NCBI RefSeq assembly: GCF_008329525.1
Contig: NZ_NPKQ01000002.1
Coordinates: 682,001 to 746,000, forward strand
From: Tardiphaga sp. P9-11
GTDB taxonomy: Bacteria; Pseudomonadota; Alphaproteobacteria; Rhizobiales; Xanthobacteraceae
Direction of reading: 5' to 3'
DNA: 64,000 bases
In this document: piece after piece, positions 1 to 6,634 of the stretch
Position numbering within the stretch: the stretch's first letter is position 1
Layout: the number at the start of each line of letters is the position of its first letter
The notes under the pieces: model-generated
The model's database searches: none
The model's input: the letters and a program-made list of their open reading frames with translations, nothing else
What the model was told of the DNA's origin: nothing
Translations under genes and position numbers: made by a program

Positions 1-1119
1 TATCACGGCCGCGAAATTCTCCGCGCTGGCCTGATCCCGGATGACCTGATCTTCCAGAACCCGGTGTTCCGTCCGGAGATGAACGGCCAGGACGTCCCCC
101 ACGACGTCTATGTGCATATCGCCGGCATCGACATTGTCCGGACCAATCCGGACGAATTCTTCGTCCTCGAAGACAATGCCCGCACGCCCTCCGGCGTCTC
201 CTACATGCTGGAGAACCGCGAGATCATGATGCGGCTATTCCCGGATCTGTTCGCGCGGCATCGCGTCGCGCCGGTCGAGAAATATCCAGACGAACTACTG
301 TCCTGCCTGCGCTCCGTCGCACCACGCTCGGCCTCCACGGAGCCGACCGTCGCGCTGATGACACCCGGCGTCTACAACTCGGCCTACTACGAACACTCGT
401 TCCTCGCCGACAAGCTCGGCGTCGAACTGGTCGAGGGCCGCGACCTTATCGTCAAGAACGACGAAGTCTTCATGCGCACCACCGAAGGGCTCAAACGCGT
501 CGACGTGATCTATCGCCGCGTCGATGACGACTTCCTAGATCCCCTCACCTTCCGTCCGGATTCAGCGCTCGGCGTGCCCGGCCTGATGTCCGCCTATATG
601 GCCGGCAACGTCACGCTGGCCAACGCGGTCGGCACTGGTATCGCCGATGACAAGGCGATCTACAGCTACATGCCGGAAGTGGTGAAGTTCTATCTCGGCG
701 AAGAGCCCATCCTGAAGAATGTGCCGACCTGGCGCTGTCGCGAAGCGGGCGATCTCGCTTATGTGCTCGATCACTTAAGCGAACTCGTCGTCAAGGAAGT
801 CCACGGCTCCGGCGGTTACGGCATGCTGATCGGGCCGGCCGCCACCAAGGCCACCATCGAAGCGTTCCGCGACAAGCTGAAGCGCGAGCCGGAAGGCTTC
901 ATTGCGCAGCCGACGCTGGCGCTGTCGACCTGCCCGACCTGCACCGAGTCGGGTCTCGCGCCGCGGCACGTCGACCTTCGCCCCTTCGTGCTCACTGGCA
1001 GCAAGAGCGTGAACATTGTCGCTGGCGGCCTGACCCGCGTGGCGCTGAAGGAAGGCTCGCTGGTGGTGAATTCCAGCCAGGGCGGCGGCACCAAGGACAC
1101 GTGGATTTTGGACGAATAA
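1..1119 (+). CDS. Circularly permuted ATP-grasp protein (DUF404/DUF407), 5' partial
   Basis: The frame is open from the first base with no start, so the N-terminus lies upstream; 372 codons remain. The sequence matches the circularly permuted ATP-grasp family. An acidic block YRRVDDDFLDPL sits near codon 170, a VKEVHGSGGYGM segment (nucleotide-binding loop type) near codon 263, and the conserved C-terminal SSQGGGTKDTWIL ends the protein. ATP-grasp enzymes of this type are predicted to form amide or peptide bonds using ATP. It is followed by an alpha-E gene, a transglutaminase-like gene and an Anbu peptidase, the standard neighbourhood of this family. The substrate is unknown. Family assignment is firm; biochemical role is inference. 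Confidence 0.9.
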   Translation, partial: YHGREILRAGLIPDDLIFQNPVFRPEMNGQDVPHDVYVHIAGIDIVRTNPDEFFVLEDNARTPSGVSYMLENREIMMRLFPDLFARHRVAPVEKYPDELLSCLRSVAPRSASTEPTVALMTPGVYNSAYYEHSFLADKLGVELVEGRDLIVKNDEVFMRTTEGLKRVDVIYRRVDDDFLDPLTFRPDSALGVPGLMSAYMAGNVTLANAVGTGIADDKAIYSYMPEVVKFYLGEEPILKNVPTWRCREAGDLAYVLDHLSELVVKEVHGSGGYGMLIGPAATKATIEAFRDKLKREPEGFIAQPTLALSTCPTCTESGLAPRHVDLRPFVLTGSKSVNIVAGGLTRVALKEGSLVVNSSQGGGTKDTWILDE

Positions 1120-1181
1120 TTCTCGACATAAGCAACCGGACCTCGACCGACGACCCAATTTTCAAAGAGTAACATCCCCGC

Positions 1182-2126
1182 ATGCTGTCGCGCACCGCCG
1201 AGAACCTGTACTGGCTAGCCCGCTACGTCGAACGCGCCGAATATCTCGCGCGCACGATCGAGGCAACACTGCGCGTCACCGCGCTGCCGAACACTTATAT
1301 CGGCCAAACCAATGAATGGGACTCGGCGCTACTGACTGCCGGTGTCAGTGCGGCCTTTTACGAGATCTACGAGGAAGCCAACGAGACCAACGTCGTCGAA
1401 TATCTCTCGTTCTCGACGGCCAATCCCTCCTCGATCCGCAACTGCATCGAGGCTGCGCGGCTGAACTCGCGCTCGGTCCGCACCGCGCTGACCGGCGAGA
1501 TGTGGGACACCATCAACAGCGCGTGGCTGGAGCTGCAATCGGCCTGGAGCGGCGGCGCCAAGACACGCGAGCAGCTGGCGAATTTCTTGCGCTTCGTGCA
1601 GGAGACCTCGCTGCGCTTCGATGGCTCGGCCTACCGGACCATGCTGCGCAACGATGCCTACTGGTTCTCGCGGCTTGGCCTGCATCTGGAACGCGCCGAC
1701 AACACTGCGCGCATTCTCGATGTGAAATATCATCTGCTGCTGCCCGAGGACGAACATGTCGGAGGCCCGCTCGACTACTATCAGTGGACCTCGATCCTGC
1801 GCTCGGTCTCGGCGCTGACGGCCTATCACTGGGTCTATCGCGAGACACTGAAGCCGTGGCTGATCGCCGACCTCCTGATCCTCAACGACACGCTGCCGCG
1901 CTCGCTGGCGAGCTGCTATGGCAACCTCGTCCGCAATCTCGACCAGATCGGCGTGTCCTACGGCCGTCAGGGCGCAGCGCAGCGCCACGCCCGCGGCGTC
2001 CGAAACCGCCTCGAACACAGCAACATGCAGGATATTTTCCAGCATGGGTTGCATGAATTCATCCAGGAATTCATTGCAGATAACAGCCGTCTGGGCGACA
2101 TCATCGCCAAACAATACCTGATTTGA
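1182..2126 (+). CDS. Alpha-E domain protein (DUF403)
   Basis: A 314-residue all-helical protein starting MLSRTAENLYWLARYVER, the characteristic alpha-E N-terminus. No signal peptide or membrane segment is visible. Alpha-E proteins are nearly always encoded beside or fused to circularly permuted ATP-grasp proteins and are thought to act with them, but no activity has been assigned that I know of. The gene lies 62 bp after the ATP-grasp gene and 144 bp before the transglutaminase-like gene on the same strand. The ATG at 1182 is the natural start because the conserved N-terminus begins there. Family is certain; function is not known. Confidence 0.9.
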   Translation: MLSRTAENLYWLARYVERAEYLARTIEATLRVTALPNTYIGQTNEWDSALLTAGVSAAFYEIYEEANETNVVEYLSFSTANPSSIRNCIEAARLNSRSVRTALTGEMWDTINSAWLELQSAWSGGAKTREQLANFLRFVQETSLRFDGSAYRTMLRNDAYWFSRLGLHLERADNTARILDVKYHLLLPEDEHVGGPLDYYQWTSILRSVSALTAYHWVYRETLKPWLIADLLILNDTLPRSLASCYGNLVRNLDQIGVSYGRQGAAQRHARGVRNRLEHSNMQDIFQHGLHEFIQEFIADNSRLGDIIAKQYLI

Positions 2127-2130
2127 GCTA

Positions 2131-2222
2131 GCGCGTTTTCAAGCGAAGTGGATGCCGGTTCGCGTGAAGAAAACGCGTCAAAAATAAGGAGCTGGAGCCT
2201 TCGTTCCGATTTCATCGGAACG
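2131..2222. repeat. Intergenic palindromic repeat of Bradyrhizobium type
   Basis: The gap between the alpha-E and transglutaminase genes holds two palindromes. CGCGTTTTC (2132-2140) pairs with GAAAACGCG (2169-2177), enclosing GCGAAGTGGATGCCGGTTCG. CGTTCCGAT (2202-2210) pairs with ATCGGAACG (2214-2222) across a 3-base loop. The composition resembles a dispersed intergenic element I associate with Bradyrhizobium-type genomes, and related sequence recurs at 8787-8868. It could act as a transcript-processing or attenuating hairpin inside the cassette. Confidence 0.55.
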
Positions 2223-2270
2223 TAAAAAGCTCTAGCGTCCCGGCCCATCTGCAGATTCGGACACGTTACC

Positions 2271-3113
2271 ATGCGCCTGCGTATCGCCCATTCGACCACC
2301 TATCGCTACGAGCCGCCGGCGTCGGGCGTGATCCAGATTCTGCGGATGACACCGGGCAGCCATGACGGCCAGTATGTCGCCGAGTGGCAGATCGACGTTT
2401 CCACGGATTCCCGCCTCGATCTGCATGAGGATGCGTTCGGCAACGTCACTCATGTGCTGACCCATGGGCCGATCGCCGACCTCACGGTGACCGTAGAAGG
2501 CTTGATCGAGACCCAGGACACCGGCGGCGTTCTGAAGGGCACTGATGAGCGCTTTCCACCGAGTTTCTTTCTGCGCCAAACCGATCTGACCGACGCCAGC
2601 ACAGCGATGCAGGCCTTTGCCAAAGACCTCGCGCCCAGCGCCGAGACCGACGTGCTCGGTTTCCTGCATGCGCTGATGATGGCCATCAACGAACACATGA
2701 CCTTCGACATCGATCCGACCAGCACCGGCACATCGGCCAGCGAGGCCTTCATCGGCAAGCGCGGAGTCTGCCAGGATTACGCGCATATCTTCATCGCCTG
2801 CGCCCGCTCGGCCGGCGTCCCTGCCCGCTTCGTCTCCGGGCACTTCTGGCGCGCCGATGGCGAGAGCAACCAGCAGGCAGGGCATGCCTGGGCCGAAGCT
2901 TATGTCCCGAATCTCGGCTGGGTCGGATTCGATCCCGCCAATGCCATCTGCACCACCGATGCCCATGCCCGCATCGCCATCGGCCTGGATTACCTTGGTG
3001 CAGCCCCCGTTCGCGGCACCCGCTATGGCGGCGGCACGGAAACGCTCACCGTGGCCGTCAATGTCGATCAGGCCGGCAGTCGCGGCCAGTCCCAATCGCA
3101 AAGCCAGTCCTGA
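2271..3113 (+). CDS. Transglutaminase-like protein of the Anbu cassette
   Basis: A 280-residue protein with an N-terminal beta domain (MRLRIAHSTTYRYEPPA, typical of bacterial transglutaminase-like N regions) and a papain-fold core. The triad is visible: Cys167 in GVCQDYAH, His in GHAWAEAYV about 38 residues later, and Asp in GFDPANA. It has no signal peptide, so it is probably cytoplasmic. Such proteins may cleave or form isopeptide bonds. In this cassette it is predicted to process the product of the ATP-grasp ligase. The C-terminus ends in a short Gln/Ser tract (QSQSQSQS) encoded by a degenerate repeat. Start chosen at the ATG where family similarity begins. Confidence 0.9.
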   Translation: MRLRIAHSTTYRYEPPASGVIQILRMTPGSHDGQYVAEWQIDVSTDSRLDLHEDAFGNVTHVLTHGPIADLTVTVEGLIETQDTGGVLKGTDERFPPSFFLRQTDLTDASTAMQAFAKDLAPSAETDVLGFLHALMMAINEHMTFDIDPTSTGTSASEAFIGKRGVCQDYAHIFIACARSAGVPARFVSGHFWRADGESNQQAGHAWAEAYVPNLGWVGFDPANAICTTDAHARIAIGLDYLGAAPVRGTRYGGGTETLTVAVNVDQAGSRGQSQSQSQS

Positions 3114-3247
3114 ACAACCTCAAATTGGCGTGTCGAGGTTGCCCGGCTGAGGTCCACCGCGTAAGACGCTTTCCTGTATTATTCTGGAGCGCGACCGGAC
3201 GCAAACAGCGGTGCACTTTTGCTGATCGCGCTCGCAAGGGACTGACG

Positions 3248-3994
3248 ATGACCTATTGCTGCGGAATTCTCGTCAAGGACGGCCTGGTGATGATCGCGGA
3301 CACGCGCACCAATGCCGGACTCGACAACATCTCGACCTTCCGCAAGCTGCACATCTTCAACCAGCCCGGCGACCGCATCATGGCCGTGGCCTCCGCCGGC
3401 AATCTGGCGATCAGCCAGTCGGTGCTCTCCACCCTGAGCGAAGGGCAGGAGAATCCAGCGACCGGCGAATTGGAAACCCTGCTGAACGCGCCGACGATGT
3501 TTCAGGCCGCGCAGCGCATCGGCCGCGCGATCCGGCACGTCAACGCCAGCGAGGGCAAAGCGCTCGAGGCCGAGGACATCAATTTCGATGTCTCGTTCCT
3601 GTTCGGCGGCCAGATCAGGGGCGCCAAGATGCGGCTGTTCATGGTCTACCCGGCCGGCAACTTCATCGAATGCACGGTAGATACGCCCTATCTCCAAATC
3701 GGCGAGCACAAGTACGGCAAGCCTGTGCTCGACCGCGCGATGCATTACGATGTCGAACTCTATGAGGCGCTCAAGACCGGCCTGATCTCGATGGACTCGA
3801 CCATGCGCTCCAATATTGGCGTCGGCCTGCCGATCGATGTGCTGGTGGTACGCACCGATGTCTGCGATGCCGATCTCAACCACCGTATCGAAGCAGGCGA
3901 ACCCTATTTTCACGACCTGCGCTCGCGCTGGTCGGCAGCATTGCGCGCGGCACATCAAAACATTCCGCGCCCGCCCTACAAGAAAGACAATTGA
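3248..3994 (+). CDS. Anbu proteasome-type peptidase (ancestral beta subunit)
   Basis: A 248-residue Ntn-hydrolase starting MTYCCGILVKDGLVMIADTR. After Met removal Thr becomes residue 1, the expected proteasome-type nucleophile; ADTRT and ASAGNLAISQS are conserved core segments. This is the Anbu family, related to HslV and the 20S beta subunit. The frame is open further upstream, but the ATG at 3248 is required to expose the Thr and is the usual family start. No partner unfoldase is encoded nearby. It closes the ATP-grasp, alpha-E, transglutaminase set, and its last bases overlap the next gene, suggesting co-translation. Confidence 0.92.
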   Translation: MTYCCGILVKDGLVMIADTRTNAGLDNISTFRKLHIFNQPGDRIMAVASAGNLAISQSVLSTLSEGQENPATGELETLLNAPTMFQAAQRIGRAIRHVNASEGKALEAEDINFDVSFLFGGQIRGAKMRLFMVYPAGNFIECTVDTPYLQIGEHKYGKPVLDRAMHYDVELYEALKTGLISMDSTMRSNIGVGLPIDVLVVRTDVCDADLNHRIEAGEPYFHDLRSRWSAALRAAHQNIPRPPYKKDN

Positions 3995-4524
3995 GCGCGG
4001 CCGCGATGACCGCAGCTCCGATGAAATGGCGCATCATGACGGAGGCAGACCTGCCGTCAGTCCTCGCCATCGCCGATGCCGTTCATCCCGATTTTCCCGA
4101 AGATGAGGTTGTGTTCGCGAACCGCCTGACACTGCATCCAAGCGGTTGCGCCGTGCTCGAAGCCCAGGACGGGGTTAAGGGTTACATCATCAGCCATCCC
4201 TGGCAGTTCAAGACGCCGCCGGCACTAAACAGCCTGCTGACGATACCCGCTTTGCCATCTACTTATTACATTCACGACCTTGCTCTGCTGCCCGAGACCC
4301 GCAGATCCGGCGCGGCGACCATGGCCGTTGACATGATGGCGGCACATGCCAGGCTGATGCAATTGCCCAATATGACGCTTGTTGCCGTCAACAATTCAGT
4401 TCATTTTTGGCAGCGGCACGCTTTCACCATCATCCGCGATTCCGAACTGGATCAGAAACTGCAAAGCTACGGCGACAACGCACGTTTCATGGTCCGGGAC
4501 CTCACCCAAAAAGACCTCTCGTAA
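3991..4524 (+). CDS. GNAT-family N-acetyltransferase
   Basis: About 177 residues with GNAT features: an N-terminal [21 protein letters not shown] segment and a motif-A region, [20 protein letters not shown], for acetyl-CoA binding. The TTG at 3991 overlaps the Anbu stop codon (TTGA). ATG codons at 4006 and 4021 are alternatives; 4021 (MKWRIM) matches where conserved sequence begins. The substrate cannot be read from sequence. Its tight overlap with Anbu suggests co-translation and hints at a role linked to the cassette, but it could simply be a neighbour. Confidence 0.8.
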
Positions 4525-4546
4525 AAAGAAAACAGGGACGAAACAG

Positions 4547-5305
4547 ATGACCAACAAGATCGCACTTGTAACCGGAGCTGGCACCGGCGTCGGCCGTGCC
4601 GCGTCGCTCGCGCTGATGAATGCCGGCTTCGTCGTCGTGCTCGCTGGCCGCCGGCTCGAACTGCTGCAAGAAACCCAGAAGCTCGGCGCGGCCACTGGCG
4701 GCAAGAGCCTTCCCGTGAGCGCCGACATGGCCGACCCCGCTTCCATCGCAGCGCTGTTCGCCAGGACCATGCAGGAGTTCGGCCGCCTCGACGTGCTGTT
4801 CAACAATGCCGGCATGGGTGCGCCTGCGATCCCCTTCGAGGATCTCGGCCTCGAGCAGTGGCAGGCCGTGGTGAACACCAACCTCACCGCGCCGTTCCTG
4901 TGCACGCAGCATGCCTTCCGCATCATGAAGGATCAGACGCCGCGCGGCGGCCGCATCATCAATAACGGCTCAATCTCCGCCCATGCGCCGCGCCCGTTCT
5001 CCGCCGCCTACACCTCGACAAAACACGCCATCACCGGCTTGACCAAGGCCAGCAATCTCGACGGCCGCGCCTATGACATCGCCGTCGGCCAGGTCGATAT
5101 CGGCAACGCCGCCACCCCCATGACCGACCGCATGGTCAACGGCCCCGGCGTGCTACAGCCCGACGGTACCTCGAAGCAGGAACCGCGCATGGACGCCAAG
5201 GCCGTCGGCGACGCCGTCGCCTATATGGCCGGTCTCCCGCTCGATGCCAACGTGCTGACTATGACGGTCATGGCAACCAAGATGCCGTTCGTCGGACGTG
5301 GCTAA
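4547..5305 (+). CDS. Short-chain dehydrogenase/reductase (SDR)
   Basis: A 252-residue classical SDR. The NAD(P) motif TGAGTGVG lies near residues 10-17, NNAGMG follows the fourth strand, and the active-site Ser and YxxxK are in [20 protein letters not shown]. The start is the ATG of [10 protein letters not shown]. It lies 22 bp downstream of the GNAT gene, so it may belong to the same transcript. Substrate unknown. It is a different subgroup from the SDR at 12124, having DARGYDI-type C-terminal sequence suggestive of Rhizobiales SDRs of unassigned function. Confidence 0.88.
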
Positions 5306-5349
5306 AACGTAATTCGCCTCAGCGGCATTGCGATTGCATGACATGGGGA

Positions 5350-5373
5350 GCCGCGGCATCATCGCCGCGGTTT
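5350..5373 (+). terminator. GC hairpin with short T tract
   Basis: CCGCGGC (5351-5357) pairs with GCCGCGG (5364-5370), followed by TTTC. It sits after the SDR gene and only 11 bp before the transporter start. It could end the upstream transcript or modulate the transporter leader. The T tract is short, so confidence is moderate. Confidence 0.45.
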
Positions 5374-5383
5374 CGGGGGATTT

Positions 5384-6634
5384 ATGCTTCAGCTACAATC
5401 GGCGTTCGGCGTCATCGCACTTTTGGGGATCGCCTGGGCGCTCGGTGAAAACCGCAGCAAGGTGTCGCTGCGACAGGCCGCGATTGGTCTTGCATTGACG
5501 GTCGCCGCTGCCGTGATCCTGCTGAAGCTTCCCGTCGTTACGCGCGCCTTCAGCAGCATCAACGATGCTGTCAGCACCATCGCCGCAGCGTCGCGCGCCG
5601 GCACCTCCTTCGTGTTCGGTTATCTCGGCGGCGGCGCATTGCCGTTCGATCTTAAGAATCCCGGCGCGGATTTCGTGCTTGCGCTGCAGGCACTCCCCGT
5701 GGTGCTGGTCATCAGCGTGCTGACCAGCCTGTTGTTCTACTGGCGTATCCTGCCGCCGATCGTACGCGGCATGGCGTGGCTGCTCGAACGTACGCTCGGC
5801 ATCGGCGGCGCAGTCGGGCTGTCAACGGCCGCGAACATCTTTCTGGGCATGGTCGAGGCCCCGCTGTTCATTCGCCCGTACCTCACGCAGCTCACGCGTA
5901 GCGAACTGTTTCTGGTGATGACGGGCGGCATGGCGGGGATCGCCGGTACCGTGCTGGTGCTCTACGCCACTTTCATGGCGCCGCTGATCCCCGATGCGTC
6001 GGCACACTTCGTGATTGCTTCTGTGCTCTCGGCACCGGCTGCGATCCTTGTCAGCCTGATCATGGTGCCTGAGACGGAGGATCGTCGCACCGGTGGATTG
6101 CTCGCCAATCCGGACGCATCGGCCACGAGCACGATAGATGCGATCGTCAAGGGCACGAGTGCAGGCATCGAACTGCTCGTCAACATTATCGCCCTGCTGC
6201 TGGTCTTCGTAGCGCTGATGTATCTCATGAACGCGATCCTCATGATGATGCCAACCGTGGGAGGCAACACGCTGTCCGTGCAGCGCATGCTGGGTTACGT
6301 GATGGCACCGGTGTGCTGGCTGATGGGCCTGCCGTGGGACCAGGCGCTGACCGCGGGCTCGCTGATGGGCGTCAAGACGATCCTCAACGAGTTGATCGCC
6401 TATGTTCAATTGGCGAAGCTCGGTTCCGATGCGCTGGATGCGCGCTCGCGCCTCATCATGCTTTATGCGCTGTGCGGATTTGCAAATTTTGCCAGCCTCG
6501 GAATTATGATCGGAGGCCTGGGCACCATGGCGCCGGAACGTCGTAACGAAATCAACGCGCTCGGTGTGAAGTCGATCGTCTCGGGGACACTGACGACCTG
6601 CCTGATGGGCGCGATCGTCGGCATGCTCACCTGA
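5384..6634 (+). CDS. Concentrative nucleoside transporter (CNT/NupC family)
   Basis: A 416-residue polytopic membrane protein with about ten hydrophobic segments. CNT signatures are visible: GGGALPFD, a gate-type NIFLGMVEAPLFIRPYL segment and the C-terminal YALCGFANFASLGIMIGGLG. CNT proteins symport nucleosides with protons or sodium across the inner membrane. The length matches bacterial NupC. The gene stands alone on the plus strand and converges with the dipeptidase gene 20 bp downstream. Nucleoside specificity cannot be told from sequence. Confidence 0.9.
   Translation: MLQLQSAFGVIALLGIAWALGENRSKVSLRQAAIGLALTVAAAVILLKLPVVTRAFSSINDAVSTIAAASRAGTSFVFGYLGGGALPFDLKNPGADFVLALQALPVVLVISVLTSLLFYWRILPPIVRGMAWLLERTLGIGGAVGLSTAANIFLGMVEAPLFIRPYLTQLTRSELFLVMTGGMAGIAGTVLVLYATFMAPLIPDASAHFVIASVLSAPAAILVSLIMVPETEDRRTGGLLANPDASATSTIDAIVKGTSAGIELLVNIIALLLVFVALMYLMNAILMMMPTVGGNTLSVQRMLGYVMAPVCWLMGLPWDQALTAGSLMGVKTILNELIAYVQLAKLGSDALDARSRLIMLYALCGFANFASLGIMIGGLGTMAPERRNEINALGVKSIVSGTLTTCLMGAIVGMLT

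Follow-up and report, generated by a model that had tools for sequence, protein, structure and literature searches.

Anbu, a proteasome-type protein, is encoded in a cassette with a circularly permuted ATP-grasp, an alpha-E (DUF403) and a transglutaminase-like protein, and a comparative-genomics study of 2009 by Iyer, known to us through the papers that cite it, is said to have predicted a peptide-synthesis system for such genes. Here we analysed a stretch of 64,000 nucleotides (nt), hereafter the window, of the 6.16 Mb genome of Tardiphaga sp. P9-11 (contig C16, positions 682001-746000), at the start of which this cassette is followed by a gene for a predicted GNAT acetyltransferase. We consider it probable, at roughly 78%, that the locus is a canonical Anbu operon under sigma54/NtrC control in nitrogen shortage, and that the GNAT gene is a lineage-specific passenger rather than part of the Anbu system.

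Two papers describe the Anbu operon in the same gene order, and in their accessible parts Anbu had no peptidase activity on the substrates tested, the ATP-grasp of Yersinia released phosphate, and no specific mutual interactions of the Yersinia operon proteins were detected (PMC5666114, PMC6376114). One of them reports binding of epoxomicin and MG132 to Thr1 of Anbu, and its authors favour degradation (PMC5666114). A split-ring dodecamer is the assembly characteristic of Anbu, and structures have been solved, but the accessible portions of the open-licence literature searched named no substrate. Predictions of sigma54 regulons in alpha-, beta- and gammaproteobacteria list COG3484 (PMC12316311). 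On nitrate versus ammonium, Pseudomonas putida raised PP_2685 (Anbu) by log2 4.44 and PP_2688 (ATP-grasp) by log2 3.99 (PMC8050072), and a DUF403/transglutaminase-type cluster of Burkholderia cenocepacia, with Anbu not named in the text available, depends on NtrC and sigma54 (PMC5491218). Given the COG3484 listing and the latter two papers, sigma54 control of Anbu is therefore not new as such. The operon itself was also known already; the present analysis adds a nitrogen-type promoter for this lineage and the synteny of Anbu with an SDR oxidoreductase gene (SDR1).

A Candidate Sigma54/NtrC-Type Promoter

Promoters read by sigma54 RNA polymerase carry a -24/-12 element with the consensus GG-N10-GC. 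Such an element, TGGCCCGCCCCTTGCT, lies 72 nt before the ATP-grasp start and begins 372 bases before window base 1 (C16:681629, L003:4629). We scored the element, requiring a match at 9 or more of 11 positions, in two sets of loci: the named family loci, which are the top 80 among 516 Anbu relatives (the nearest, from Bradyrhizobium sp. NFR13 and Tardiphaga robiniae, have Anbu proteins 98-99% identical to that of the window), and an out-of-family set of 75 loci, taken from 75 genomes out of the 93 outside the family that have an Anbu match. All 55 named loci with enough upstream sequence have the element. The antisense strand gave none in the named and one in the out-of-family loci, and shuffles of all 105 regions averaged 4.2 matches, with a maximum of 9. 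The block TGGCCCG.CCCTTGCTACC, together with the bases just preceding it, stands out as conserved against a variable background.

Further upstream, all 49 distinct regions carry TGC-N11-GCA boxes, positioned at -88 to -90 in every case and additionally at -25 in 20; at the Tardiphaga locus they precede the sigma54 element by 89 and 25 nt. The 69 sites compare with 4.3 in shuffles (at most 10), and spacings of 9, 10, 12 and 13 give 0-2. TGC-N8-GCA scores in 35/49 regions, seemingly as the same box, since the main box contains a second TGC. The form was found post hoc by inspecting sequences of related loci, and its backing comes from the shuffles and the other spacings. NtrC sites are described in one paper as GC and GC elements 11 nt apart, which is the spacing of our boxes (PMC8443478). 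Two other box forms were rejected: the NifA-type TGT-N10-ACA was found in none of 48 upstream regions, and GCAC-N(3-9)-GTGC, a form of the NtrC box, in one of 48.

The genome encodes rpoN and an ntrC above its curated cut-off, with the GAFTGA loop. Caulobacter NtrC is reported to be without GAFTGA and to act at sigma70 promoters (PMC10274813), so NtrC function varies among alphaproteobacteria. A paper on RpoN in Bradyrhizobium gives an ATP-grasp gene with a different element, also differently spaced, which its available text does not allow to be tied to the Anbu operon (PMC13207237). Judging by these promoter elements, NtrC and sigma54 RNA polymerase most likely turn the operon on in nitrogen shortage.

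The Four-Gene Cassette

The initial annotation had proposed four consecutive cassette genes joined by a GNAT, and Pfam confirmed all five. The cassette, whose gene order is kept on one strand at this locus, comprises:

1-1119, + strand: circularly permuted ATP-grasp (CP_ATPgrasp_2), 3' part; Pfam E 3e-151 (1-1116), PDB relative 3n6x
1182-2126, + strand: alpha-E (DUF403) protein of 314 amino acids; Pfam Alpha-E, E 3.4e-90
2271-3113, + strand: transglutaminase-like protein with Cys167, His205 and Asp221; Pfam Transglut_core, E 4.9e-23, and Bact_transglu_N
3248-3994, + strand: Anbu (proteasome-type), Met followed by Thr1, with Asp17 and Lys32; Pfam Proteasome, E 1.1e-7

The window cuts the ATP-grasp gene at its 5' end, the ATG being 300 bases before window base 1 (C16:681701, L003:4701). 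Anbu aligns over about 240 residues with five Anbu or Anbu-like PDB sequences (5loy, 5nyj, 5nyf, 5nyw and 5lox), and the transglutaminase-like protein matches 3isr and 6g49. For alpha-E there was no PDB sequence relative at E<=0.1; its model, predicted to be all-helical (model confidence, pLDDT, of 93), matched no PDB fold at E<=0.001 and thus pointed to no mechanism.

Further expectations from the initial annotation held: the transglutaminase Cys-His-Asp triad is in place, Anbu has a candidate Thr nucleophile, and the link to the published ligase/peptidase prediction is correct. Thr1, which would become the N-terminal residue after Met removal, is found with Asp17 and Lys32 in the window gene and in 74/75 out-of-family loci (Ser1 in the remaining one), and Cys/His/Asp in the window gene and in 48/49 out-of-family loci. 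Gene order was counted in loci with at least 4 kb upstream, which leaves 74 of the out-of-family set; all four genes stand in this order within 4.5 kb in 45/74 of these and in 50/73 named loci. Judging by their families, the ATP-grasp and the transglutaminase-like protein would build or exchange amide bonds, and Anbu would use Thr1 to cleave peptide or isopeptide bonds.

Anbu could instead serve protein turnover in nitrogen starvation as a general protease, with the ligase genes acting separately. Inhibitor binding at Thr1 and the authors' preference for degradation are in keeping with this, as is the detachment of Anbu from the other genes, or its separation by an insert, in 23/73 named loci. 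The lack of peptidase activity on the substrates of both published studies speaks against it, as does the cassette itself, which is without an unfoldase gene, as the initial annotation had noted; HslV is encoded elsewhere in the genome. We regard this alternative as unlikely.

Variants of the arrangement were also seen. In nine of the 75 out-of-family loci (L301, L302, L304, L305, L307, L309, L315, L316 and L320) a transglutaminase-type match lies directly behind rather than before Anbu, and DUF2126 occurs in 7 of 74 first downstream genes in that set, in which L312 stops about 250 nt behind Anbu. In L096, L110, L130 and other Bradyrhizobium loci, the insert between transglutaminase and Anbu contains an oppositely oriented gene whose product by eye resembles the binding protein of a transporter.

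The GNAT Gene behind Anbu

We searched a family sample of 149 genomes once for Anbu and once for the GNAT and compared the results. Anbu was found in 124 genomes and a GNAT match in 61, three of them weak and partial. The genes adjoin in 14 of the 124 Anbu genomes, namely 7/7 listed genomes of the same genus (g1; one GNAT split), 6/6 of g28 and 1/1 of g46. They are both present but apart in 40 genomes, and seven have the GNAT without an Anbu match, one of them 74% complete. No GNAT ortholog adjoins Anbu in any of the 75 loci outside the family, and 10 of the 80 named loci carry one behind Anbu. In one Tardiphaga record without the GNAT (L068), SDR1 follows Anbu directly. The counts rest on tblastn or genome searches; the open reading frame caller overlooked the GNAT in some tblastn-positive loci. 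The suggestion that the GNAT is an extra cassette member is thus not supported, its adjacency being absent from 110/124 Anbu genomes of the family sample and from 75/75 out-of-family loci, and on these counts, together with the 70 GNAT-less named loci, we reject it as a conserved fifth gene.

No other GNAT recurrently takes its place in the loci covered, though a single case is possible. Pfam matches listed for 74 out-of-family first downstream genes included no GNAT family with at least two members, and the same was true of those listed for 30 family representatives. A profile of the GNAT orthologs, built after dropping five matches that ran past a stop, matched 13 called proteins, all at loci where the GNAT had been found before. 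The open-licence literature, as far as its text was accessible, held no report of a GNAT behind Anbu; the 2009 study lay outside that search.

Among 37 unlinked GNAT loci examined, the gene adjoins purF, a different SDR gene or both in 17 (both in 14), and it lies elsewhere in 20. By tblastn, the purF-SDR stretch was without the GNAT in 19/19 genomes of Tardiphaga, g28, g46, Bradyrhizobium (g25) and g6. In a tree of 54 GNATs, the Anbu-linked and the purF-linked copies are clustered, and neither forms a single clade. The tree needs two changes to account for the Anbu-linked copies, and one change suffices in 12% of bootstrap trees; a single origin is possible on this evidence.

The protein itself can be described as follows:

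3991-4524, + strand: GNAT acetyltransferase, starting at TTG 3991, ATG 4006 or ATG 4021; Pfam Acetyltransf_1, E 1.2e-7, above cut-off

GNATs bind acetyl-CoA through the motif R/Q-x-x-G-x-G/A, which RRSGAA in this sequence fits. The model (pLDDT 95) has a GNAT fold by fold search, so motif and fold together predict an acetyltransferase. Its best fold matches are N-terminal acetyltransferases such as Ard1 (E 8.2e-10, the best), NatB and RimI, at about 13-20% identity in the rows listed, and there was no PDB sequence relative at E<=0.1. As 674 PDB chains match the model at E<=0.001, the fold does not name a substrate and offers no more than a lead on its class.

The start of the GNAT had been read as overlapping the Anbu stop. 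TTGA is indeed found at 3991-3994, where it joins that stop and a possible TTG start. TTG is unproven as the start, and the in-frame ATG at 4006 or 4021 may be the true one. Six of the 20 linked loci show this overlap, namely that of the window and the five nearest by sequence (L006-L009 and L073), each with in-frame ATGs behind it; one further locus (L071) has ATGA. In the remaining 13, between a few and about 250 nt separate the Anbu stop from the first usable start, and several show by eye a palindrome-like sequence. The overlap is therefore not conserved.

Relative to nine homologs, the window GNAT has ratios of nonsynonymous to synonymous substitution (dN/dS) of 0.15-0.28, compared with 0.04-0.14 for the transglutaminase, 0.01-0.11 for Anbu, 0-0.12 for alpha-E and 0.02-0.13 for SDR1. 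By this measure the GNAT is under constraint, though a weaker one than the genes around it. Genome G140, of the same genus, has it split over two frames (L324:8008-8486).

These results bear on the idea that in this lineage the GNAT works as a fifth component of the system, acetylating a peptide product or the Thr1 alpha-amine of Anbu and so turning the peptidase off. It lies on the same strand as Anbu with no terminator found, adjoins Anbu in every listed genome of g1, g28 and g46, and resembles N-terminal acetyltransferases in fold. Against this stand its absence from beside Anbu in most Anbu genomes of the family sample, its presence in seven genomes without Anbu, its absence from the out-of-family loci, its faster evolution relative to Anbu, a fold too common to name a substrate, the split copy and the Tardiphaga record that is missing it. 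With the gene mostly elsewhere, found also without Anbu, and the overlap not conserved, the component idea is unsupported, and we judge it very unlikely. More doubtful still is a specific version, capture of the GNAT into a nitrogen-starvation operon as an off switch that acetylates Thr1 of Anbu or caps the amide product; nothing positive favours acetylation of Anbu or of its product. If the GNAT did act on Anbu, this would be a new way of switching off a proteasome relative.

Synteny of Anbu and SDR1

Behind the GNAT, and in one spacer of the cassette, lie further features:

4547-5305, + strand: SDR oxidoreductase (SDR1); adh_short, E 4e-46; a conserved neighbour behind Anbu in close relatives
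5384-6634, + strand: NupC-type nucleoside transporter by Pfam and NCBIfam; in 63/70 GNAT-less named loci
2128-2250, + strand: dispersed repeat between alpha-E and transglutaminase; 15 matches genome-wide, counting itself, the majority partial

Among the 79 named loci with at least 600 nt behind Anbu, nine carry the GNAT and 70 are without it. SDR1 comes next after Anbu in all 70 (median gap 46 nt, largest 267, within 60 nt in 64), and it stays there even where ATP-grasp, alpha-E and transglutaminase are detached or separated. The Anbu-SDR1 arrangement therefore looks older and the GNAT an insertion; most simply, the sequence comparison suggests, the GNAT was inserted between Anbu and SDR1. It would thus be a stand-alone acetyltransferase of variable gene position across the family, inserted here in Tardiphaga and two related genera, co-oriented with Anbu and possibly co-transcribed.

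So constant a neighbour, retained even without the rest of the cassette, might suggest that Anbu and the SDR gene are the real functional pair, the GNAT and the remaining three genes being gained and lost. Outside the family, no SDR1 match lies behind Anbu in the 75 loci, except in opposite orientation in L300. The named loci are also the closest 80 of 516 relatives, in which synteny may simply not have decayed. We consider such a pair quite improbable.

Weighing the Evidence

Several observations count against a nitrogen-controlled operon with a passenger GNAT. The sigma54 element was found in only 18/50 out-of-family loci. Three PII genes, used as a check over 500 nt upstream, gave two, one and no TGC-N11-GCA boxes, and the box-plus-promoter pattern occurs 13 times genome-wide versus 6 for a control pattern. 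None of the 23 named loci with a detached or separated Anbu has a sigma54 element of its own for that gene, which argues against an obligatory single operon. Expression of the Anbu operon is reported as unchanged under various other conditions (PMC5666114). Regarding the passenger, the GNAT is unsplit in 6/7 same-genus genomes and under purifying selection, and has therefore been kept; a search of 3700-5450, spanning Anbu to SDR1, revealed no sigma70-type promoter or terminator-like site, so read-through and co-transcription from Anbu into the GNAT are possible.

We nevertheless favour the sigma54/NtrC-controlled operon with a passenger GNAT. Its conserved promoter points to nitrogen limitation as the condition under which to seek the Anbu substrate in a tractable soil bacterium, and the result sets aside the GNAT, which would mislead as a clue to Anbu function.

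Comparison with Known Systems

A second cluster in the same genome (C16 near 860000; L004 = C16:855001-868000) has the same domain families, but its ATP-grasp and alpha-E are fused. It also holds a transglutaminase-like protein and a 1101-residue protein that begins like one; no Anbu was seen in the 13 kb stretch, and the 400 nt that precede its first gene contain neither a sigma54 nor a TGC-N11-GCA element. We set aside the secreted Rlo system of P. aeruginosa, described with an inactive transglutaminase domain and an ATP-grasp and, in the text available, no Anbu or alpha-E named (PMC12239564). Acetyltransferases of the Ard1/RimI/NAT type share the predicted fold of the window GNAT at the low identity given above.

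The P. putida PP_2685/PP_2688 cluster is like the Tardiphaga operon in gene families and in presumed nitrogen control, which in Tardiphaga is deduced from the DNA alone. The B. cenocepacia cluster I35_5080-83 (DUF404/407, DUF403 and two transglutaminase-type proteins) is likewise similar in families and presumed nitrogen control, but differs in that no Anbu is named in the cluster as listed. A further close counterpart is the Anbu operon described from Pseudomonas, Yersinia and others, which agrees with the Tardiphaga locus in its four families, their order, Thr1/Asp17/Lys32 and an operon free of AAA+ ATPase genes; the Tardiphaga locus departs from it in having the GNAT behind Anbu, followed by the SDR gene and nupC.

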